This document shows positions 38,227 to 49,944 of a DNA stretch of 64,000 bases, in pieces. The notes under the pieces are model-generated. The model made no database searches, was not told the origin of the DNA, and saw only the letters and a program-made list of their open reading frames with translations. Origin of the DNA: Arthrobacter oryzae (GTDB taxonomy: Bacteria > Actinomycetota > Actinomycetes > Actinomycetales > Micrococcaceae); the NCBI RefSeq assembly GCF_030718995.1, contig NZ_CP132204.1, forward strand, positions 3,844,001-3,908,000, read 5' to 3'. Position 1 is the first letter of the stretch. Each line of letters begins with the position of its first letter. Both the position numbers and the translations under genes were made by a program.

Positions 38227-38718
38227 TCATCGTACGCTTCGCATCCCGCTGTAGGCTGCGACGGCCCCTACCAGGAAAATGAGGACGGTCAGATAGACCG
38301 GGCCGAGGTGCCCGGGCGTGGCCAGCCCCCATGGGTAGTGTGCAGGGAGGGCCACGGCGAGTCCGACGACCGGGACGACAACGGCTGTGGCGAAGGCCCA
38401 CCGGTCTCCGCGGCGCACCCCGAACCAGGACAGGCCTGCGATGGCCAGTCCGGTCGCAGCGATGAAGCCGCTGAGTGCGATGTGCAGATGGCTGATGTAG
38501 TGATACAGCTGCGGGCTGAACGCCTCGACGTCCGCCTTCCCCTTGTCCACCTCATCGGGGCCGATGCCCAGCTCGAGGAAGGTGCCCGAAAAGTTCAGTA
38601 CCAAGAAGACTGCGGCATACCCCACGAAGGCCAGGCCGGCAAGCGTCATGAGAGCGGCTCCTGTCCGGAGGCGGGACTGTTTCCCTTGGGGAGCTTGGAC
38701 GGCAGACAAGGCCACCAC
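38227..38718 (-). CDS. Hypothetical four-helix membrane protein
   Basis: A 163-residue protein with four hydrophobic segments (GAALMTLAGLAFVGYAAVFLVLNF, IALSGFIAATGLAIAGLSWFG, FATAVVVPVVGLAVALPAHY, PVYLTVLIFLVGAVAAYSGM). An extracytoplasmic loop has ELGIGPDEVDKGKADVEAFSPQLYHYISHLH. No signal peptide and no recognised family. It is convergent with selO. Confidence 0.7.
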   Translation of the reverse strand: MVALSAVQAPQGKQSRLRTGAALMTLAGLAFVGYAAVFLVLNFSGTFLELGIGPDEVDKGKADVEAFSPQLYHYISHLHIALSGFIAATGLAIAGLSWFGVRRGDRWAFATAVVVPVVGLAVALPAHYPWGLATPGHLGPVYLTVLIFLVGAVAAYSGMRSVR

Positions 38719-38886: not shown

Positions 38887-39681
38887 ATGGCCGGCGGCAG
38901 CCGCGAACCTGGCCGTTCCGTGACGTCCAAGGTCCTGGCCATCCTGGAAGCATTCGAGAAATCCCGCGGCGCAATGAGCCTGACCGACATTGCGGAACAA
39001 TCAGGGCTGCCGCTGAGCACCGCACACCGTCTGGTCAACGAACTCACGGACTGGGGTTTCCTGACGCGCGAACCCAACGGCCGCTACCAGCTGGGCATCC
39101 GGCTGTGGGAACTTGCCCAGAACACCGGACGGCAGCTCCGCGAAGCTGCCCGTCCCTACATCCAGGACCTGTTCTCCCTGACAGGCGAGACAGCGCACCT
39201 GGCCATCCGGGCGGGACATGAGGTCCTTTACATCGACCGGGTCTACGGTTCCAAGCGCGTGCCCCGGGCCTCCCGCGTCGGCGGCCGCCTTCCCATGCAC
39301 GCCACAGCCGTCGGGAAAGTCATCCTTGCGTTCGAGGACGACTGGGTCCGGGACGCCTACCTCAACCGCGACCTCGAGCGGCCCACCGCCCATACCCACA
39401 TTGACCCGCGGCGGTTTGCCGAAGAGCTGATCCAGATCCGGGAACAGGGCTACGCCACCACCATGGAGGAGATGCGGCTCGGGTCGTGTTCCATTGCGGT
39501 CCCGGTTTTCCACACCGGCAGGATCGGCGCCGGACTGGGCCTCGTGCTGCCCACATCGCAGGCATCCACCATGACCAGGCACCTTCCCGTCCTCAAGGGC
39601 ATATCGGCCCAGATTGAGCGTGCCACTGCACGGATTCCGCTGGAAACGTTGATTGGCGTGCATCGCGGAGCAAGGGACTGA
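38887..39681 (+). CDS. IclR family transcriptional regulator
   Basis: A 264-residue IclR protein. The N-terminal winged helix is VTSKVLAILEAFEKSRGAMSLTDIAEQSGLPLSTAHRLVNELTDWGFL (residues about 12-60). The C-terminal effector domain has RVGGRLPMHATAVGKVILA and EEMRLGSCSIAVPVFHTG. It lies 154 bp upstream of, and in the same direction as, the cre-like operon, so it is the likely regulator of that operon. The effector is probably the aromatic substrate or a product (inferred). Confidence 0.9.
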   Translation: MAGGSREPGRSVTSKVLAILEAFEKSRGAMSLTDIAEQSGLPLSTAHRLVNELTDWGFLTREPNGRYQLGIRLWELAQNTGRQLREAARPYIQDLFSLTGETAHLAIRAGHEVLYIDRVYGSKRVPRASRVGGRLPMHATAVGKVILAFEDDWVRDAYLNRDLERPTAHTHIDPRRFAEELIQIREQGYATTMEEMRLGSCSIAVPVFHTGRIGAGLGLVLPTSQASTMTRHLPVLKGISAQIERATARIPLETLIGVHRGARD

Positions 39682-39763
39682 CGGGTCAAAGCGGCGACGC
39701 CGGGCCGGCTCTGACATTGCCTTCCGCTCAGTGGAAGTCAAAGCTGTTATCCCGAGGTGAGGT

Positions 39764-39778
39764 GGACCACACTGGTCC
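39764..39778. promoter_or_regulatory. GGACCA-CAC-TGGTCC dyad, candidate IclR operator
   Basis: A perfect 6-bp inverted repeat 57 bp upstream of the P450 start, in the only long intergenic gap of the cluster. A further imperfect hairpin (GGCACCGT...ACGGTGCC) lies at 39790-39810. A role in operon control is inferred from position. Confidence 0.4.
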
Positions 39779-39835: not shown

Positions 39836-41113
39836 ATGTCATCGTCGACAGAAACGGCCGGCCGCTGTCCCTTCGGATACGGCGCCGAAGCCCCCGCCGG
39901 ACACCACGGCTATGAGCCCTTCCAGATGAAGGACCCTTTCGGTGCCTATGCCGAGCTCCGGTCCGAACAGCCGGTGATGTTCGATGAGCGCGTCGGCCTC
40001 TACGTTGTCTCCCGCTACGACGACATCAAGGCCGTTTTTGAGGACTGGGAAACCTTCTCCAGCGAAAACGCCCAGGCCCCGGTCCGCGAGCGCGGACCCG
40101 CCGCGAAAAAGATCATGGAAGACGGCGGCTTCACCGCCTACTCCGGACTTTCCGCCCGTCGCCCGCCGGAGCACACCCGGATCCGCGCCGTGGTGCAGAA
40201 GGCCTTCACGCCCCGCCGCTACAAAGCACTGGAGCCTTTCATCCGGGAAAACGTCGTCAAACTCATCGAGAAAATGCTCTCCCGCGAAGAGCGCCGCGGC
40301 GACATGGTCAAGGACCTCGCCTACGACGTCCCCACCATCACCATCCTCACCCTGATCGGCGCGGACGTTACCCGGGTGGACACCTTCAAGCGCTGGAGTG
40401 ATTCCCGCGCCGCCATGACGTGGGGTGACCTGAGCGATGAGGAACAGGTCCCGCACGCCCGCAACCTGGTCGAATACTGGCAGGAATGCCTGCGCCTGGT
40501 CCGCGTGGCCCATGAGGAAGGCGGGGACAACCTCACCGCTGACCTCGTGAAGGCACAGCACGAAGGCGCGGAAATCTCGGACCATGAGATCGCCTCGGTT
40601 CTCTACAGCCTGCTCTTCGCCGGTCACGAAACCACCACCACGCTGATCGCCAATGCCCTGCGGGAGCTGCTGGCCCGTCCCGCGCAGTGGCAGCAGCTGG
40701 TCGAAGACCCCAAGAAAATCCCCGCAGCGATCGACGAGGTCCTCCGCTACGCCGGCTCGATCGTCGGCTGGCGCCGCAAGGCCCTGAAAGACACCGAAGT
40801 GGGCGGGGTCCCCATCGAGGAGGGGTCGCAGCTGCTGCTCCTGATGGGCTCTGCCAACCGCGATGAAAGCAAGTTCGAAGCCGGCGAAGACTTCGACATC
40901 ACCCGCCCCAACGCCCGCGAGCACCTCTCCTTCGGCTTCGGAATCCACTACTGCCTGGGCAACATGCTGGCCAAGCTCCAGGCCAAAATCGCGCTCGAGG
41001 AAGTGGCCCGGCTCGCCCCGGAGCTGCAGCTCGAGGACCCGGAGGCCATCGCCTTCCGCGAGAACCTCTCCTTCCGTGTCCCCGAGACCGTTCCTGTCAC
41101 CTGGAAGGCCTGA
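39836..41113 (+). CDS. creJ: Cytochrome P450, CreJ-like (alkylphenyl phosphate hydroxylase)
   Basis: A 425-residue soluble bacterial P450. The I-helix is LLFAGHETTTTLIAN, ExxR is in DEVLRY, and the heme ligand is Cys373 in FGFGIHYCLGNM. It opens an eight-gene unit whose order equals that of the Corynebacterium glutamicum cre genes, where CreJ oxidises the para side chain of phosphorylated alkylphenols. Electrons would come from the ferredoxin and reductase encoded downstream. ATG 39836 follows AAGGAG. P450 membership is certain; the CreJ role is by gene context. Confidence 0.85.
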   Translation: MSSSTETAGRCPFGYGAEAPAGHHGYEPFQMKDPFGAYAELRSEQPVMFDERVGLYVVSRYDDIKAVFEDWETFSSENAQAPVRERGPAAKKIMEDGGFTAYSGLSARRPPEHTRIRAVVQKAFTPRRYKALEPFIRENVVKLIEKMLSREERRGDMVKDLAYDVPTITILTLIGADVTRVDTFKRWSDSRAAMTWGDLSDEEQVPHARNLVEYWQECLRLVRVAHEEGGDNLTADLVKAQHEGAEISDHEIASVLYSLLFAGHETTTTLIANALRELLARPAQWQQLVEDPKKIPAAIDEVLRYAGSIVGWRRKALKDTEVGGVPIEEGSQLLLLMGSANRDESKFEAGEDFDITRPNAREHLSFGFGIHYCLGNMLAKLQAKIALEEVARLAPELQLEDPEAIAFRENLSFRVPETVPVTWKA

Positions 41114-41117
41114 CCCC

Positions 41118-42197
41118 ATGCAAAGCAATGAATACATCCAGTTCTTCGACGGCGGCATCGAACCTGAGCTTGAAAACCTTGGGGGCAAGGGCGCTTCCCT
41201 GGTCACCATGACCTCCGCCGGCATGCCTGTCCCGCCCGGCTTTGTGGTCACCACCGCCCAGTTCGATGCGTTCATGGACGAAGCAGGCATCACCCGGCAC
41301 ATCCACCAGCTCCTCGCCGATCTGGATCCCGAGGACATGGGCCAGGTGGACAAGGTGTCCGCCGCCATCCGCGAGGACATCTGTTCCCGCCCCGTACCGC
41401 CGGCAATGCGTGAACTGACCATCACCGCCTACGAGTCGCTCATGGCCCGCTTCGACTCGCCGGTGCCGGTGGCCGTCCGCTCCAGCGCCACCGCCGAGGA
41501 CCTGCCCGACGCCTCCTTTGCCGGCCAGCAGGACACCTACCTGTGGCTCGACGGGGTCAAAGCGGTCACCGAGCACATCCGCCAGTGCTGGGCCTCGCTC
41601 TTCACCTCCCGCGCCATCATCTACCGGCTCAAGAACAGCATCCCCAATGAGGGCCTGTCGATGGCCGTTGTGGTGCAGAAGATGGTCAACTCACGGGTGT
41701 CCGGCGTCGCCATCACCATGGACCCCACCAACGGTGACCGCTCCAAGATCACCATCGACTCCTCCTACGGGGTGGGGGAGATGGTGGTGTCCGGCCAGGT
41801 CACCCCGGACAACATCCTGCTGGACAAGGTGACGCTCGCCGTCGTCAGCGAACACCTCGGCGATAAGCACGCCGAACTGGTCCCCGACGCCGGCGCCAAG
41901 CGCCTGGTGGAACGCGAGGTCGACGCCGAACGCCGCGGCCGCCGCAGCCTCACCGATGCGGAACTCACCGCCGTCGCCCGGATGGCCAAGCGGGCCGAGA
42001 AACACTACAAGTGCCCCCAGGACATCGAATGGGCCCTCGACGCGGACCTGCCCGACGGCGACAACCTGCTGCTGCTCCAGTCCCGCCCGGAGACCGTGCA
42101 CTCCTCGAAACCTGCCCCGCAGACGGCCCCGCAGCCGGTCGTCTCCGGCGGCTTCTTCAGCGCATTCAGCACGCCAACACTCAACCCTTCCGCCTAA
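41118..42197 (+). CDS. creI: PEP-synthase-like ATP-binding subunit, CreI-like
   Basis: A 359-residue protein consisting of a PEP/pyruvate-dikinase N-terminal (ATP-grasp) domain only. Seen are ENLGGKGASLVTMTSAGMPVPPGFVVTT, VAVRSSATAEDLPDASFAGQQDTYL, SGVAITMDPTNGD, and QDIEWALD...LLLLQSRPET. The catalytic-His swivelling domain is on the next gene product, so the two make a split phosphotransferase like phenylphosphate synthase. In the cre pathway CreH/CreI phosphorylate 4-cresol with ATP. H versus I is assigned from gene order only. It starts 4 nt after creJ. Confidence 0.78.
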   Translation: MQSNEYIQFFDGGIEPELENLGGKGASLVTMTSAGMPVPPGFVVTTAQFDAFMDEAGITRHIHQLLADLDPEDMGQVDKVSAAIREDICSRPVPPAMRELTITAYESLMARFDSPVPVAVRSSATAEDLPDASFAGQQDTYLWLDGVKAVTEHIRQCWASLFTSRAIIYRLKNSIPNEGLSMAVVVQKMVNSRVSGVAITMDPTNGDRSKITIDSSYGVGEMVVSGQVTPDNILLDKVTLAVVSEHLGDKHAELVPDAGAKRLVEREVDAERRGRRSLTDAELTAVARMAKRAEKHYKCPQDIEWALDADLPDGDNLLLLQSRPETVHSSKPAPQTAPQPVVSGGFFSAFSTPTLNPSA

Positions 42198-42244
42198 GGC
42201 TCCACACACCAAGGCTCACCGCTGAGCCCTATGAAAGGACCGCC

Positions 42245-44116
42245 ATGTCCCTGAAGTCCTTCCCCAAACCCTCCGAGCTAGCGGTCCCCGCCGGCGCCGA
42301 CGGCTGGGAAAAGATCTACCCCTACTACCTCGTGTTCCAGGACAGGCTCAAGGAACAGGAGGACGCCAAGTTCTGGTTCTGCGACAGCCAGCACTGGCCC
42401 ACCGTCTTCAAGCCCTTTGAAACCATCGGCGGCGAGTTCGCGGTCAAGTGCCTGGGCCAGTACAACGCCCGGCACCTGATGATCCCCAACGCCAACGGCA
42501 TCGAATTCCGCATCCACCTTGGCTACCTCTACATGTCGCCCATCCCCGTGCCGGAAGACCAGATCGCCGCGCGTGTGCCGCTGTTCGAGCAGCGCGTGGG
42601 CCACTACTTCCAGAACTGGGAGCAGCTGCTCAAGGAGTGGCACGTCAAAGTCAAGGGCACCATCGCCGAGATGGAAACCATTTCCTTCCCCAAACTTCCG
42701 GACATGGTCCCCATGGAGGACATCGTTACCGGCAAGGGCAAGGACGGTTCCGAAAAGCTGCTGGAAAGCTACGACCGCCTGATCCAGCTGGCCTACCAGA
42801 ACTGGCAGTACCACTTTGAATTCCTGAACCTGGGCTACATCGCCTACCTGGACTTCTTCAACTTCTGCAAGCAGGTCTTCCCGAACGTCCCGGACCAGTC
42901 GATCGCCACCATGGTGCAGGGCGTGGACATGGAGCTCTTCCGCCCGGACGACGAACTCAAGGGACTCGCTAAGCTCGCCGTGGAACTGGGACTCCAGGCC
43001 CACTTTGGCAACACGGACGACGTCGATGCCACCTTGGGTGCCGTCGCCGCCGCTCCGGGCGGGGACCGCTGGATCGCCCAGTACGAAGGGGCCAAGGACC
43101 CGTGGTTCAACTTCACGGTGGGCAACGGCTTCTACGGCCACGACAAGTACTGGAACGAGCACCAGGAAATCCCGCTCGGCTACATCGCGGACTACATCCG
43201 GCGCGTGGACGACGGCCAGGAAATCATGCGTCCCGTCGAAGCCCTGATCATCGAACGGGACCGCATCATCGAGGAGTACCGCGACCTGCTCGAAGGCGAC
43301 AACCAGGCGGTCTTCGACGCCAAGCGCGGCCTTGCCGCCACCGCCTACCCCTACGTGGAGAACCACAACTTCTACATCGAGCACTGGACCATGGGCGTCT
43401 TCTGGCGCAAGATCCGTGAGCTCTCCCGCATGATGCACGCCGAGGGCTTCTGGACCGAACCGGACGACCTCCTCTACCTGGGCCGCAACGAGGTCCGCGA
43501 CGCACTCTTTGACCTGGTCACCGGCTGGGGCGTCGGCGCCAAGCCGATCGGGCCGGACTTCTGGCCGGAGGAGATCGAACGCCGGCGCGGCATTGTGGAC
43601 GCGCTCAAGACCGCCCGGCCTGCCCCGGCGCTGAACACGCCGCCGGAGTCCATCACCGAACCCTTCACCCGGATGCTCTGGGGCATCACCACCGAGCAGG
43701 TCCAGCAGTGGCTGGGTGCCGGCGAAGCGGTGGAAGGCGGCGGACTGCGCGGCATGGCAGCCTCACCTGGTGTGGTGGAAGGCCTGGCCCGCGTTGTCAC
43801 CGACGCGGACCAGCTCTCCGAAGTGCAGCAGGGCGAGATCCTCGTTGCCACCGTGACGGCGCCTTCATGGGGTCCGATCTTCGGGAAGATCAAGGCTACG
43901 GTCACGGACATCGGCGGCATGATGAGCCACGCCGCGATCGTGTGCCGCGAATACGGACTTCCGGCCGTGACCGGGACCGGTTCGGCCTCCACCACCATCA
44001 AGACCGGCCAGAGGCTGCGGGTGGACGGGACCAAGGGCACGGTCCAGATCCTCGACGCGCTGGAACCTGACCTCCTGGCCGCCGGTTCCGGCGCGCACGC
44101 CCACAGCCATGTCTGA
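42245..44116 (+). CDS. creH: PEP-utilizing-enzyme subunit with catalytic His domain, CreH-like
   Basis: A 623-residue protein. The long N-terminal and middle region (residues 1-510) matches phenylphosphate-synthase-type subunits. The C-terminal PEP-utilizer mobile domain carries the phospho-acceptor His562 in GGMMSHAAIVCREYGLPAV, after ILVATVTAPSWGPIF. Together with the ATP-grasp subunit upstream it should phosphorylate a phenol hydroxyl. ATG 42245 follows AAAGGA. It overlaps the SDR start by 8 nt. The specific substrate, 4-cresol or another alkylphenol, is inferred from the cluster. Confidence 0.8.
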   Translation: MSLKSFPKPSELAVPAGADGWEKIYPYYLVFQDRLKEQEDAKFWFCDSQHWPTVFKPFETIGGEFAVKCLGQYNARHLMIPNANGIEFRIHLGYLYMSPIPVPEDQIAARVPLFEQRVGHYFQNWEQLLKEWHVKVKGTIAEMETISFPKLPDMVPMEDIVTGKGKDGSEKLLESYDRLIQLAYQNWQYHFEFLNLGYIAYLDFFNFCKQVFPNVPDQSIATMVQGVDMELFRPDDELKGLAKLAVELGLQAHFGNTDDVDATLGAVAAAPGGDRWIAQYEGAKDPWFNFTVGNGFYGHDKYWNEHQEIPLGYIADYIRRVDDGQEIMRPVEALIIERDRIIEEYRDLLEGDNQAVFDAKRGLAATAYPYVENHNFYIEHWTMGVFWRKIRELSRMMHAEGFWTEPDDLLYLGRNEVRDALFDLVTGWGVGAKPIGPDFWPEEIERRRGIVDALKTARPAPALNTPPESITEPFTRMLWGITTEQVQQWLGAGEAVEGGGLRGMAASPGVVEGLARVVTDADQLSEVQQGEILVATVTAPSWGPIFGKIKATVTDIGGMMSHAAIVCREYGLPAVTGTGSASTTIKTGQRLRVDGTKGTVQILDALEPDLLAAGSGAHAHSHV

Positions 44117-44873
44117 CGTGACCATGCCTGAAGCAGGGAAAACTGTCCTGATCACCGGTGCCGCCGGCGGGCTGGGCCGGGCGTTCGCGCTCGGCTTCGC
44201 CGGCCGCGGCTACCGGGTCGCGGTGGCGGACATCAACCTTGAAGGCGCCGAGCAGACGGCGAAGCTGGTCCGCGAAATCGGCGGCGAAGCCGCAGCCTTC
44301 CCAGCGGACGTCACCAGCGTGGACTCCACGGAGGACCTCGCGAAAAGCTGCGCGGAGTTCGGAAACGGAAGCATCGACGTCGTCCTTAACAACGCCGCGG
44401 TGTACGCCGGGGTGACCCGGAGCCCGTTCGAGGACATTGACCCGGCCGAATGGGACCTGGTCATGAACGTGAACCTCAAGGGCCCGTGGCTGGTGACCCG
44501 CGCGGCCAGCCCCTACCTCCCGGAGGGCGGACGCGTCATCAACCTCTCCAGCGCCACCATCTTCAGCGGCTCCGAGCAATGGCTGCATTACGTCGCCTCC
44601 AAGGGAGGCGTGGTGGCCATGACCCGGGTCATGGCCAAGGAACTGGGCCGGCGGGGGATCACGGTCAACGCGATCGCCCCGGGCTTCACTCTCACCGAGG
44701 CCAGTTACGGGCTGATGGAAAACGCCGAGAACTACGGCGTGGACCGCGGTGCGATCAAGCGGGCCAGCCAGCCGGAGGACATCGTGGGTGCCGCGCTCTT
44801 CCTCGCCGGACCCGACAGCTCCTACTACACCGGCCAGACCATGGTGGTGGACGGCGGCCGCCAGTTCATCTGA
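44109..44873 (+). CDS. creG: Short-chain dehydrogenase/reductase, CreG-like
   Basis: A 254-residue classical SDR. NAD(P) binding is by TGAAGGLGRAFALGFAGRG, then NNAAVYAG, the catalytic Ser in INLSSATIF, the Tyr/Lys in HYVASKGGVVAMTR, and PGFTLTEASYG. In the cre pathway it would oxidise 4-hydroxybenzyl alcohol to the aldehyde. It overlaps creH by 8 nt and is followed by the ferredoxin gene after 48 nt. Family is certain; role from context. Confidence 0.82.
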   Translation: MSDVTMPEAGKTVLITGAAGGLGRAFALGFAGRGYRVAVADINLEGAEQTAKLVREIGGEAAAFPADVTSVDSTEDLAKSCAEFGNGSIDVVLNNAAVYAGVTRSPFEDIDPAEWDLVMNVNLKGPWLVTRAASPYLPEGGRVINLSSATIFSGSEQWLHYVASKGGVVAMTRVMAKELGRRGITVNAIAPGFTLTEASYGLMENAENYGVDRGAIKRASQPEDIVGAALFLAGPDSSYYTGQTMVVDGGRQFI

Positions 44874-44921
44874 CGAGCCCGTCATCCAACCAAACATCCA
44901 ACTTCAATCCAAGGAGGACCA

Positions 44922-45242
44922 ATGCCAACGGTTCACTTCACCGACGCCCAAGGCGCCGTCCGCGACGTTCAGGGCAACGCGGGCGACTCGGTCATGGAAA
45001 CCGCGGTACGCAACGGCGTCCCCGGAATCGTGGCCGAATGCGGCGGCTCACTGTCCTGTGCCACCTGCCACGTCTTCGTCCGGGAGGACTGCGTTTCGCA
45101 GCTGCCGCCCATGGAGGACATGGAGGACGAAATGCTCTACGGCACCGCCGTGGACCGCGAGGACAACTCCCGGCTGTCCTGCCAGCTGCGCCTGACGGAC
45201 GACATCGAACTGTTCGTCACCACCCCGGAAACGCAGGTGTAG
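44922..45242 (+). CDS. creF: [2Fe-2S] ferredoxin, CreF-like
   Basis: A 106-residue vertebrate/putidaredoxin-type ferredoxin. Cluster ligands are the Cys of ECGGSLSCATCHVF (C-x5-C-x2-C) and the later Cys in RLSCQLRL. It ends in TTPETQV, without extra domains. It carries electrons from the reductase next door to the P450. AAGGAGG precedes the ATG. It is followed after 2 nt by the reductase start. Confidence 0.9.
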   Translation: MPTVHFTDAQGAVRDVQGNAGDSVMETAVRNGVPGIVAECGGSLSCATCHVFVREDCVSQLPPMEDMEDEMLYGTAVDREDNSRLSCQLRLTDDIELFVTTPETQV

Positions 45243-45244
45243 CC

Positions 45245-46570
45245 GTGGGCACCCACGCAGCGGCGCAGCCGACCAGCGTCACAGCCGGGGCACAAACCCT
45301 CCCCACACGGACGGGGCTCCTGATCATCGGCGCGAGCCAGTCGGGCGTGCAGCTCGCTGTATCCCTTCGCGCCCTGGGCTTCGACGAGCACATCACCCTC
45401 CTCGGCGACGAGGACCACCGCCCGTACCAGCGGCCGGCACTGTCCAAGGAGTTCCTGCAAGGCACGGTGGAGAGCGAATCACTCATCTTCCGCTCCAACG
45501 AGTACTGGGCCGAGCACAACGTGGAGCTGGTCAAGGGCGAATACATCGTCCGCATCGACAAGGAAGCGGACGGGTCCGGGGTGGCGCATGCGTCCTCCGG
45601 CCGGGAGTTCCCCTTCAAACGGCTCGCGCTCACCGTGGGTGCCCGTGCGCGGAAACTGGACATCGACGGCGGGGACCTGGACGGCGTGCTGTACCTGCGC
45701 AACGCCGACGACGCCCTGGCACTTAAGGCCCGGGTGGGCAACGCCACGGACGTGGTGGTGATCGGCGGCGGGTTCATCGGCCTCGAAGCCGCGTCCAGCC
45801 TGCATAAAATGGGCAGGAACGTCACGGTCCTCGAGTTCGGTCCGCGCCTTGTGGGCCGGGCCGTGGGGGAGGAGACCGCCGAGTACTTCCTGCAGGCACA
45901 CCGCGCCCGCGGCCTGGACATCAGGCTCAACACCAGCGCGGCCCGCTTTACCGCGAACGACGCCGCAGGTGAAAATCAGAATTCAGTCGCCGCCGTCGAA
46001 CTTCAGGACGGCACTGTGCTGCCTGCCCAGATTGTACTGATCGGCATCGGCGTCATTCCGAATACCCAGCTGGCCGAACAGCTGGGACTGGCCGTGGACA
46101 ACGGCGTGGTGGTGGACCGGTTCGCGCTGGCGTCGGACGGGACCACCGTGGCGGTGGGGGATGTTGCCAACATGCCCAACCCCGTGCCGGGTTCCGAGCC
46201 GGGCGAACGGATCCGGCTGGAGAGCGTCAACAACGCCATCGAGCATGCCAAGGTGGCGGCCTACTCGCTCACGGGCAGGCGGGAGGAATACGCCGGCATC
46301 CCGTGGTTCTGGTCCAACCAGGCCGACCTCAAGCTCCAGATCGCGGGCCTCTGCAACGGCTACGACCGGACCGTGCTCCGGCGCGACGAGGAACGCGGCA
46401 AATTCAGCGTCCTGTACTACCGCCAGGGCCGGATCATTGCAGCGGACTGCGTCAATGCGCCGCTGGACTTCATGGCTGTCAAGAACGCCCTGGCCAAGGG
46501 CCGGAACATCCCGGCCGATGCCGCCGAGGACACCGCAACACCCCTCAAGACCATCACCACGGACAGCTAG
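45245..46570 (+). CDS. creE: FAD-dependent ferredoxin reductase, CreE-like
   Basis: A 441-residue putidaredoxin-reductase-type flavoprotein. FAD binding is by LLIIGASQSGVQLAVSLRALGF, then DEDHRPYQRPALSKEFL, NAD binding by VVVIGGGFIGLEAASSLHKMG, and FAD contact VAVGDVANMPNP. The C-terminal part PWFWSNQADLKLQIAG is typical of this class. GTG 45245, 2 nt after creF, is taken as start because the frame upstream belongs to other genes. It passes electrons from NAD(P)H to the ferredoxin. Confidence 0.88.
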   Translation: MGTHAAAQPTSVTAGAQTLPTRTGLLIIGASQSGVQLAVSLRALGFDEHITLLGDEDHRPYQRPALSKEFLQGTVESESLIFRSNEYWAEHNVELVKGEYIVRIDKEADGSGVAHASSGREFPFKRLALTVGARARKLDIDGGDLDGVLYLRNADDALALKARVGNATDVVVIGGGFIGLEAASSLHKMGRNVTVLEFGPRLVGRAVGEETAEYFLQAHRARGLDIRLNTSAARFTANDAAGENQNSVAAVELQDGTVLPAQIVLIGIGVIPNTQLAEQLGLAVDNGVVVDRFALASDGTTVAVGDVANMPNPVPGSEPGERIRLESVNNAIEHAKVAAYSLTGRREEYAGIPWFWSNQADLKLQIAGLCNGYDRTVLRRDEERGKFSVLYYRQGRIIAADCVNAPLDFMAVKNALAKGRNIPADAAEDTATPLKTITTDS

Positions 46571-46610
46571 CTGTACCCAGACAGCAGGTTGGCCCACCCG
46601 AAGGAGCATT

Positions 46611-47372
46611 ATGAGCACCCCCAAGACTCCGGTCGCCGAGGCTGGCCCCGGCGCCGTCCCCACCGCTGTGGATACCGAAAATCCGGACCCGTTGGCCGAG
46701 GCCTTCGCCGCCGAGTACAGCATCCGGCCCGTTCCCGCACCGGGGCCGGTGGACACCACGCCCATCTGCACCACCCCTGCAGCCCTTGAGGAGCTCGACG
46801 CGCTGTGGCAGGCCGTTGTCCACGAGACACGGACCCGCGGAAACGACATCCACCTGCCGATTTCCCTCGCCTTCGCCGAACGGCTGTGCCGGGCCTACCC
46901 CCAGGCCGACGCCGGACTGGTGAGGGTGGCCACCCTGCTCCACGACACCGGCTGGGCCCACGTTGATGAAACCCGCATCATTTCGGAGGGCTTCGCCGGG
47001 GACTGGCGCAAGGCGGCCATCCGCTACGAACACGAGCAGCAGGGCTGCGACGTGGCACGCCGGGTGCTGCCCGGGCTGGGCTATTCGGCCGCGTTCGTGG
47101 AAAGCGTCTGCGAGATCATCGACGGCCATGACACCCGTCCCGTGGCGCGCTCGCTGGAGGATGCCCTGATGCGCGACGCCGACCGGCTGTGGCGGTTCGA
47201 CCGTGCCGGGATTGCGCTGGCCTCCTCGTGGTTCAAGATGGATCCGGCAACCTACACGGACAGGCTGGCCACCGAGATCGTGCCCGAACTCATCACCCAG
47301 GCAGCCGTGGACATGGCCGCCGCAGACCTCGACCGCTCCAACGCCCTGCTGAAGACGGCGGTGATCCGATGA
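46611..47372 (+). CDS. creD: HD-domain phosphohydrolase, CreD-like
   Basis: A 253-residue HD-superfamily protein. The HD motif is VRVATLLHDTGWAHVDETRI, followed by EHEQQGCDVARRVLPGLGY and IIDGHDTRPVARSLED with a further metal His/Asp, and MRDADRLWRFDRAG. In the cre pathway this enzyme removes the phosphate from the oxidised alkylphenyl phosphate. AAGGAGC precedes ATG 46611. Its stop overlaps the aldehyde dehydrogenase start by 4 nt. Residues 1-60 are a Pro/Ala-rich extension. Confidence 0.82.
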   Translation: MSTPKTPVAEAGPGAVPTAVDTENPDPLAEAFAAEYSIRPVPAPGPVDTTPICTTPAALEELDALWQAVVHETRTRGNDIHLPISLAFAERLCRAYPQADAGLVRVATLLHDTGWAHVDETRIISEGFAGDWRKAAIRYEHEQQGCDVARRVLPGLGYSAAFVESVCEIIDGHDTRPVARSLEDALMRDADRLWRFDRAGIALASSWFKMDPATYTDRLATEIVPELITQAAVDMAAADLDRSNALLKTAVIR

Positions 47373-48886
47373 CGTCCGCCACCCATGACGCTCCCGCCCT
47401 GACAGCCCGGAGTGGACTCTCCCTGCCGCACACCCACGTGGACACGATTTTCGTCGACGGTGCCTGGCAACCATCCCGCGGCACCGGCCGGAACCCGGTC
47501 ACCGACCCTGCCACGGGCGAAGTCTGGGGCTCGGTCCCGGACGGCACGCCCGAAGACGTGGACGCCGCCGTCGGCTCCGCCCGGCGGGCGTTCCATAATT
47601 CCGACGACGGCGCCTGGCCCCGTCTGACACCTTCCGAGCGCGCCGCCTATCTGCTGCGGATTGCCGACGAAGTGGAACAGCGGGCTGACGAGCTGTCGCT
47701 GACCAACTCCCGGGAGAACGGCTCTCCGGTGGCCGAGTCCGCCGGTGCCGCGGCCAACGCGGCAGGCATCTTCCGCTACTTCGCGACCCTGGCCGAATAC
47801 CTGGAGCGTGAGGACGTCCGTCCCTTCCCGCGCGGCGGGGGAGAGTCTGTGGTCCGGCGCGATCCCCTGGGAGTGTGCGCACTGATCGCGCCGTGGAACT
47901 TCCCCATCAACCTTGTGGTCATCAAGCTGGCGCCGGCACTGCTGGCCGGCTGCACCGTCGTGATCAAACCGGCGTCGCCCACGCCCTTGTCCATCCGTGT
48001 GATCATCGACGCGGTGGCCGCTGCCGGAGTACCCGCCGGCGTCGTCAACCTGGTCACCGGCTCCGGCCGGCTGGGAGATGCGCTGGTGAAGCATCCCGGT
48101 GTGGACAAGGTGGCCTTTACAGGTTCGACGCCCGTGGGCCGGAAAATTGCCGCCGCATGCGGGGAGCTGCTGCGCCCGGTCACGCTGGAGCTCGGCGGTA
48201 AGTCCAGCGCCATAGTACTGCCCGACGCCGACCTGGAGGCCATGTCCAAGGTGCTGATCCGCTCCTCCATGCGCAACACCGGCCAGACCTGCTACATCTC
48301 CACCCGGATTCTTGCACCCGCGAGCCGTTACGACGACGTAGTGGACATGGTCACGGCCACCATCGCCGCCGGGAAGCAGGGTGATCCGCTGGACCCCGCC
48401 ACCGTCTTTGGGCCCTGTGCCACGGAGTCCCAGTACCGGACTGTGCTGGAGTACCTGGAATCGGGGCTTGCCGAAGGGGCGCGCGCCACGACCGGCGGCC
48501 GTGCGGCGTCGTTGGCCGGCGGGTTGGAGGGCGGCTACTTTGTGGAGCCCACGGTGTTCGCCGACGTCACCCCTGACATGCGGATCTCCCGCGAGGAGAT
48601 CTTCGGCCCGGTGATCTGCGTCCTCAAATACGATGAGGTCGATGAGGCGGTTGCCCTCGCCAACAACACGGACTTTGGGCTGGGAGGCCTGGTGTTCGGG
48701 CAGGACCCCGAAACGGCCCTCGCTGTTGCTGACCGGATGGATACGGGCTCCGTAGGCATCAACTTCTTCGCCTCCAACCATGCCGCACCCTTTGGCGGCC
48801 GGCACGACTCGGGCCTGGGCACCGAGTACGGGATTGAAGGCCTGAATGCCTACCTGAGCTACAAGTCCATCCACCGCCGCGGGTAG
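47369..48886 (+). CDS. creC: NAD(P)-dependent aldehyde dehydrogenase, CreC-like
   Basis: A 505-residue aldehyde dehydrogenase. IAPWNFPINLVVIKLAPALLAG, FTGSTPVGRKIA, VTLELGGKSSAIVLPDADLE (catalytic Glu) and nucleophile Cys308 in NTGQTCYISTRI are all present, and the length is usual. As the last gene of the cluster it should oxidise 4-hydroxybenzaldehyde, or a related aldehyde, to the acid for ring cleavage; no ring-cleavage genes lie in the window. The start overlaps the creD stop (ATGA). Confidence 0.87.
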   Translation: MTSATHDAPALTARSGLSLPHTHVDTIFVDGAWQPSRGTGRNPVTDPATGEVWGSVPDGTPEDVDAAVGSARRAFHNSDDGAWPRLTPSERAAYLLRIADEVEQRADELSLTNSRENGSPVAESAGAAANAAGIFRYFATLAEYLEREDVRPFPRGGGESVVRRDPLGVCALIAPWNFPINLVVIKLAPALLAGCTVVIKPASPTPLSIRVIIDAVAAAGVPAGVVNLVTGSGRLGDALVKHPGVDKVAFTGSTPVGRKIAAACGELLRPVTLELGGKSSAIVLPDADLEAMSKVLIRSSMRNTGQTCYISTRILAPASRYDDVVDMVTATIAAGKQGDPLDPATVFGPCATESQYRTVLEYLESGLAEGARATTGGRAASLAGGLEGGYFVEPTVFADVTPDMRISREEIFGPVICVLKYDEVDEAVALANNTDFGLGGLVFGQDPETALAVADRMDTGSVGINFFASNHAAPFGGRHDSGLGTEYGIEGLNAYLSYKSIHRRG

Positions 48887-49008: not shown

Positions 49009-49944
49009 ATGGTGCAGCTAGGCCGGCCGTGGACACCCGGGGATTCGTGGTGGGTCCGGGACAACCTGCGTGAAGCCATAGACCGGCTCGTCGAGGTGGG
49101 CTACACGGTGAGAGGCGGGCAGGGCGAGGACCCGGAGCTGATTGACCCCGGGGGCTCGGCCGTGCAGACCTGGCGGGAGGACTACCCCTACCAGGAGCGG
49201 ATGTCCCGGGAGGAATACGAACTCGAAAAGTATCGCCTGCAGGTGGAACTGCTGAAGTTTCAGTACTGGGGCCAGGATCACGGCCTGAAAATCGTGATCG
49301 TATTCGAGGGCCGCGATGCCGCCGGCAAGGGCGGGACGATCAAGCGGTTCACCGAACACCTTGATCCCCGCTCGGCCCGGACCGTGGCACTGAGCAAACC
49401 GTCGGACCGCGAGCACGGTCAGTGGTACTTCCAGCGCTACATCCAGCACCTTCCCACCGCCGGAGAGATCGTGATGTTCGACCGGTCCTGGTACAACCGT
49501 GCCAACGTGGAGCGGGTGATGGGCTTTTGCACCGACGATGAGTACGAGACCTTCATGGGGCAGGCTCCGTTGTTCGAGAAGATGCTGGTGGATTCCGGCA
49601 TCCACCTCAGCAAGTTCTGGTTCTCCGTCACCCGGCACGAGCAGCGAACCCGCTTCGCGATCCGCCAGATCGACCCTGTGCGGCGCTGGAAGCTTTCGCC
49701 TGTGGACCTGGCCTCCCTGGACCGCTGGGAGGACTACACGAAAGCCAAGGAAGAGACGTTCCTGCGCACGGACACCGACCACGCACCATGGATCACGGTC
49801 AAGTCCAACGACAAGAAGCGGGGACGGGTCAACGCCATGCGCTTCTTCCTCAACCAGTTCGACTACGCCGACAAAGATGCCTCGGTTGTGTACGACCCGG
49901 ACCCGCTCATCGTCCGCCGGGGCCGCGACGCCGTCGGAGACTGA
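49009..49944 (+). CDS. ppk2: Polyphosphate kinase 2
   Basis: A 311-residue PPK2 enzyme. Walker A is EGRDAAGKGGT at 100-110, Walker B is VMFDRSWYNRANVERV at 155-170, and the lid region is SVTRHEQRTRF. One PPK2 domain and this length fit the class that makes nucleoside triphosphates from diphosphates with polyphosphate. ATG 49009 follows GGAAGGAGA. It is convergent with a small helical protein and a CYTH-CHAD protein, also linked to polyphosphate, so the group looks functionally related. Confidence 0.92.
   Translation: MVQLGRPWTPGDSWWVRDNLREAIDRLVEVGYTVRGGQGEDPELIDPGGSAVQTWREDYPYQERMSREEYELEKYRLQVELLKFQYWGQDHGLKIVIVFEGRDAAGKGGTIKRFTEHLDPRSARTVALSKPSDREHGQWYFQRYIQHLPTAGEIVMFDRSWYNRANVERVMGFCTDDEYETFMGQAPLFEKMLVDSGIHLSKFWFSVTRHEQRTRFAIRQIDPVRRWKLSPVDLASLDRWEDYTKAKEETFLRTDTDHAPWITVKSNDKKRGRVNAMRFFLNQFDYADKDASVVYDPDPLIVRRGRDAVGD

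Follow-up and report, generated by a model that had tools for sequence, protein, structure and literature searches.

Do the eight adjacent genes at 39836–48886 of a 64,000-nucleotide stretch of DNA (the window; positions 3,844,001–3,908,000 of a single-contig, 4.65-Mb genome) encode a complete Cre pathway for alkylphenols, toxic compounds formed when lignin and protein are broken down, and what controls their expression? A first-pass annotation of the window had assigned the genes one by one to CreJ-I-H-G-F-E-D-C and proposed that the corresponding chemistry runs here. We present here comparisons that very probably identify the cluster, from its sequence, as a complete and intact cre-type operon for 4-alkylphenol phosphorylation and side-chain oxidation in a bacterium of the Arthrobacter/Pseudarthrobacter group. 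The closest named relatives among the matches listed are Arthrobacter and Pseudarthrobacter.

All eight genes lie on the plus strand in the cre order J-I-H-G-F-E-D-C, separated by gaps of 2 to 48 bp or overlapping by 4 to 8 bp (Table 1). Their coordinates and the Pfam and NCBIfam profile matches confirm the initial description of same-strand, closely spaced or overlapping genes, including its limits and an IclR gene upstream. The Pfam matches of the eight genes all exceed the gathering score, with E-values from 1e-7 to 1e-157, and the CreH match to NF006150 (cut-off, 650 bits) spans residues 1 to 622 of 623. The PF01326 and PF00391 domains reside on separate proteins, and CreH carries the swivel motif TDIGGMMSH at residues 554 to 562, which fits T/SxxGGxxxH, as in a two-component dikinase. 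The remaining motifs are also intact: heme FGFGIHYCLG and I-helix AGHETT in CreJ, TGAAGGLG and YVASK (YxxxK) in CreG, the four cluster cysteines in CreF, the HD motifs in CreD, and GQTC and ELGGK (Cys and Glu) in CreC. Because the same eight genes occur in the same order in 72 of 80 related loci (L001 to L080, the best 80 of 400 from one scan), the arrangement goes beyond chance. Genes, order, motifs, kinship, and conserved sites are all direct observations.

A gene table in the available part of PMC7764795 runs, for Corynebacterium glutamicum, from cg0637 creC (aldehyde dehydrogenase) to cg0645 creJ (P450), with creD as a phosphohydrolase, creE and creF as P450 partners, creG as an alcohol dehydrogenase, and creH and creI as kinase subunits. 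The P450 of the window scores 714 bits to PDB chains 5xjn and 7ccf and 713.5 bits to 5gwe, against 245 bits for the next chain; 308 of 405 aligned residues (76%) are identical to 5xjn, which distinguishes CreJ from other bacterial P450s. We take these three chains, which the PDB listing names only Cytochrome P450, to be C. glutamicum CreJ, and the protein is presumably of the CYP288 type. A search of the Corynebacterium-group genus with the 5xjn chain as the query gave matches at 80 to 96% in 12 of 201 genomes. One Corynebacterium-group cluster (L148), with a CreJ that shares 96% identity with the solved chain, encodes all eight proteins in the same order at 66 to 77% identity to those of the window, and its adjacent iclR product is 56% identical; against Corynebacterium-group proteins, the values are 76% for CreJ, 77% for CreH, and 66% for CreD.

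A tree of 103 CreH rows, built by a quick method with a long-branch warning for the outer groups and with no named HpeH or PpsA included, places the CreH of the window in an 84-row clade of cre clusters (Shimodaira-Hasegawa-like approximate likelihood ratio test, SH-aLRT, 100). The two further kinase clades in the sample, of 14 and 5 rows, fall outside it. The outer groups are the sets at 52 to 54% (14 rows) and 43 to 47% identity. The published gene table, the identity to 5xjn, and this grouping uphold the gene-by-gene assignment and support the proposed cre chemistry.

Table 1. Positions and profile evidence of the cre operon, its regulator, and predicted control sites in the window
Feature	Position	Strand	Evidence or remarks
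CreJ, class I cytochrome P450	39836-41113	+	PF00067; 714 bits to PDB 5xjn/7ccf
CreI, ATP-grasp subunit of aryl kinase	41118-42197	+	PF01326 (PPDK_N) 365.6 bits
CreH, substrate-binding and His-swivel subunit	42245-44116	+	PF00391 (PEP-utilizer mobile domain); NF006150 1282.8 bits
CreG, short-chain dehydrogenase/reductase (SDR) alcohol dehydrogenase	44109-44873	+	PF13561 200.5 bits, PF00106; 8-bp overlap with creH
CreF, [2Fe-2S] ferredoxin	44922-45242	+	PF00111; Cys 40, 46, 49, 87
CreE, flavin adenine dinucleotide (FAD) ferredoxin reductase	45245-46570	+	PF07992 and PF14759; GTG start, 2 bp after creF
CreD, HD-domain phosphohydrolase	46611-47372	+	PF01966 36 bits; HD at 111-112, 173-174
CreC, aldehyde dehydrogenase	47369-48886	+	PF00171 523.6 bits; 4-bp overlap with creD
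IclR-family regulator	38887-39681	+	PF01614 124 bits, PF09339 65 bits; 154 bp before creJ
Predicted IclR operator, CTTCCGCTCAGTGGAAG	39721-39737	.	Inverted repeat centred 107 bp before creJ start; basis, sequence conservation only
CRP/GlxR-like site, GTGAGGTGGACCAC (GTGA-N7-CAC)	39757-39770	+	Pattern weaker than that of the operator

Every catalytic and regulatory step of the scheme proposed here is drawn by analogy with characterised homologues. CreI would move phosphate from ATP to the swivel His of CreH, and CreH would phosphorylate the phenol hydroxyl of 4-cresol or a similar 4-alkylphenol. CreJ, with electrons from CreE and CreF, would then oxidise the aryl phosphate at its side chain, after which CreD would remove the phosphate and CreG and CreC would convert the alcohol to the aldehyde and the acid. 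The product, 4-hydroxybenzoate, would pass to protocatechuate through functions encoded elsewhere on the chromosome, while the IclR protein would act at the palindrome before creJ and a CRP-family protein would probably act beside it. For the homologous kinases, the available part of PMC12167813 states that HpeHI, CreHI, and PpsAB each require both components, and it proposes a phospho-His relay with AMP-forming chemistry for PpsAB and HpeHI. The same source reports a Ser before the swivel His for CreH and PpsA, not HpeH; a Ser precedes the swivel His in the CreH of the window as well.

The presumed 4-hydroxybenzoate can, judging from the genes present, enter a hydroxylase and dioxygenase route some 2.3 Mb from the operon. 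A 4-hydroxybenzoate hydroxylase-like gene lies at 1596164–1597321 of the same genome, and a protocatechuate 3,4-dioxygenase beta gene, at 352 bits and above its cut-off, lies at 1616239–1616895 with a weaker match adjoining. Several points tell against assignment to a complete cre-type operon for 4-alkylphenols. The hydroxylase match falls below the family cut-off (415 versus 538.7 bits); the comparison draws on citing papers, the solved chain, and a close relative rather than on the full set of eight C. glutamicum protein sequences; and between 38700 and 49200, consensus searches found neither a sigma-70-type promoter (0 matches, 0.8 expected) nor, on the plus strand, a terminator-like site. 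The actual substrate may also be a different 4-alkylphenol.

The last point leads to the alternative that survives best, namely, that the operon mainly serves another phenol with a para side chain, such as 4-ethylphenol or a lignin-derived alkylguaiacol, with 4-cresol as a minor substrate. The C. glutamicum Cre system oxidises a range of p- and m-alkylphenols (PMC9549646, in the part available), and the homologous kinase HpeHI shows a preference of its own (PMC12167813, in part). We nevertheless regard this alternative as unlikely, given that CreJ and CreH remain 76% and 77% identical to the Corynebacterium-group proteins and that the operon holds no gene beyond the eight cre genes to process a longer chain. 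The possibly wider alkylphenol range that the first-pass annotation had put forward as new does not stand as a novelty, with the C. glutamicum range already in print in the part of PMC9549646 available and nothing in the window pointing to a different one.

Much less probable is a ninth operon member. A PPK2 gene (49009–49944, plus strand; PF03976, 323 bits) adjoins the operon 122 bp downstream and could recycle the AMP made by CreHI, whose homologues are dikinases (PMC12167813, in part). None of the 80 related loci, over the stretches retrieved, gave a PPK2 match, however, and two more copies, about 88% identical, lie in the same genome at 3761389 and 3774112, some 120 to 130 kb away. Among 61 genomes of the genus, a copy at 85% identity or more is present in 4 of the 13 that have cre and in 12 of the 48 that lack it, so PPK2 and cre are not associated. 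PPK2 was accordingly rejected as a functional partner on the lack of adjacency and co-occurrence.

Least probable of all is a different phosphorylation-initiated pathway, be it that of hydroxyphenylethanone (Hpe) or the anaerobic phenol route through the phenylphosphate synthase PpsAB. The kinases belong to one superfamily (HpeH, CreH, and PpsA are about 45% identical; PMC12167813, in part), but this reading was rejected on the tree, the gene content, and the motif: CreH is 93 to 97% identical to that of other cre clusters and lies apart from the 43 to 47% group, a P450, ferredoxin, and reductase are present, the swivel His is preceded by Ser and not Cys, and no carboxylase gene was found among the genes scanned (the eight cre genes, IclR, PPK2, SelO, the gene at 38227–38718, and a CHAD protein). 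The label hpe_like45 given to an outer group is unproven, and the four neighbours scanned for one of its members include one HAD hydrolase and no carboxylase.

For the cre-type operon, the question of control begins with the IclR gene, which we take to be creR-like. Among 71 testable loci (creJ present, with 1.5 kb or more of sequence before it; iclR called at >45% identity), iclR adjoins creJ in 62, lies further upstream in 2, and was not found in 7. It is also present beside creJ in 12 of 12 Corynebacterium-group loci, some of whose genomes are shared with the 80-locus scan. IclR is, on the strength of this adjacency, an ordinary part of the cre cluster, and the earlier proposal of an added IclR control is corrected accordingly. 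In two Pseudarthrobacter clusters (L010:2242–7573 and L012:5072–7542), extra genes separate iclR from creJ. Indole induces the C. glutamicum cre operon, and loss of cg3388, a different IclR-type gene, led to higher creF RNA; the IclR gene beside creJ is not mentioned in the available part of that paper (PMC7764795).

Intergenic regions between iclR and creJ were collected from 75 loci and the window (76 rows), leaving out regions longer than 700 bp or with iclR elsewhere, and gave 70 distinct regions once repeats were removed. The palindrome CTTCC-N7-GGAAG is perfect in 29 of these, where shuffles give 0.04, and has one mismatch in 14, where shuffles give 0.54; the motif was derived from the same regions, and the combined count (43/70) overstates its independence. 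Two mismatches occur in 14 regions (6.0 expected) and three or four in 13, so that the pattern partly fails. The palindrome is nevertheless among the best conserved blocks in separate alignments of Arthrobacter-like, Streptomyces/Nocardioides-like, and Corynebacterium-like sets. With at most one mismatch, CTTCCRYTSARTGGAAG occurs at a single place in the 4.65-Mb genome, 39721–39737, and the palindromic site appears specific to the promoter region of this operon. The looser operator pattern has six sites in the window at no more than one mismatch, against 2.2 expected, and is perfect only at 39721; none at that threshold was found before iclR itself.

A degenerate form, YTTCCRYYSARYGGAAG, was widened after those loci had been viewed, and its independent part is its rarity elsewhere. 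In 33 of the 35 genomes of the genus that have cre, it is located upstream of creJ, at 2,500 to 2,652 bp before creH, and the cre genomes hold 7 further sites away from creH. It is found in 20 of 163 genomes without cre (23 sites in all). The other two of the 35 cre genomes have no site nearby: creH lies at a contig end in G014, and G011 gave no match. The GTGA-N7-CAC element at 39757–39770, which we liken to a CRP/GlxR site, is a short pattern that is perfect in 35 of the 70 regions against 1.9 in shuffles; with one mismatch it occurs in 19, not above the 23.7 expected.

These comparisons indicate that 39721–39737 is likely the IclR operator. Somewhat more tentatively, we favour the view that phosphorylation-initiated alkylphenol breakdown has an old control unit common to Corynebacterium, Arthrobacter, Nocardioides, and Streptomyces. 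The unit would consist of a dedicated IclR protein and a single 17-bp palindrome with a consensus near CTTCCRYTSARTGGAAG, in most cases followed some 36 to 70 bp downstream by a CRP/GlxR-like site. Here it would govern a one-operon regulon, silenced under a better carbon source and opened by the phenol or an aryl phosphate. No title on a cre operator was found in the literature searched, which did not cover the founding cre papers, so a prior description is possible.

The cluster is widespread but patchy. Eight of the 80 related loci depart from the full set: in five (L016, L017, L044, L063, and L077), a contig end truncates the locus close to where genes are missing; the other three are not truncated in this way, and at the thresholds used L023 and L076 lack J and I and L079 lacks the ferredoxin and reductase. 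In L079 (7594–14904, Microbacterium lacus), J, I, H, G, D, and C are present and CreF and CreE are unrecognisable; its CreJ may use other redox partners. The L017 contig is labelled as an Acidobacteria metagenome-assembled genome and its CreH, 93% identical to that of the window, falls within the Arthrobacter clade; the contig is probably mis-binned. Within the genus, a CreH match (E ≤ 1e-150) was found in 37 of 198 genomes, in 35 of them at 93 to 100% identity. A second CreH type at 45 to 46% occurs in 7 genomes, five of which are also among the 35. Across the class, 21 of 394 genomes match (E ≤ 1e-100): the genome itself, one at 76%, one at 67%, fourteen at 52 to 54%, and four at 43 to 47%. 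Two Rhodococcus plasmids carry CreH at 76 to 77%. The patchy occurrence and differing flanks suggest that the cluster may have moved.

Two members of the 14-row clade at 52 to 54% identity, L150:4655–14337 and L151:4985–11265, carry extradiol-dioxygenase-like, histidine-phosphatase-family, and Rieske oxygenase-like genes alongside CreH, with no match to a CreJ-like P450 at either locus, and possibly represent another phosphorylation-initiated aromatic pathway. Many cre clusters also hold a second gene for an HD-domain protein (PF01966; about 35% identity to CreD), mostly directly upstream of iclR (for example, L071:5761–6480). A copy elsewhere in the genome studied here was considered and rejected, the sole genome match being CreD.

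The analysis adds this chromosome to those with a complete Cre pathway, and the presence of CreH orthologues in 35 of the 198 genomes sampled from the genus shows how widely it is shared. The pathway itself is already described; the host is new, and the find is sound but largely ordinary. The remaining interest lies in the conserved predicted operator and its single site in this genome, a concrete candidate for a pathway whose inducer is called unknown in the available part of PMC7764795.

Compared with C. glutamicum, the eight functions are alike and the order in the published table is that of the window read backwards (PMC7764795, in part), while the genus and flanks differ. IclR has diverged more than the enzymes relative to L148 (56% versus 66 to 77%), and the operator lies 115 bp before creJ in the window versus about 160 to 195 bp in most Corynebacterium-group loci aligned. 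The clusters of Arthrobacter, Pseudarthrobacter, and other Actinomycetes (L001 to L080) share the gene order, in 72 of 80, and have CreH up to 97% identical to that of the window; 37 of 69 testable loci carry the second HD-domain gene, whereas the window and its whole genome lack one. HpeHI and PpsAB are, like CreHI, two-component kinases with ATP-grasp and swivel-His parts and likely share the two-step phosphoryl transfer, but at about 45% identity (PMC12167813, in part), and they have carboxylases as pathway partners where the window has a P450.

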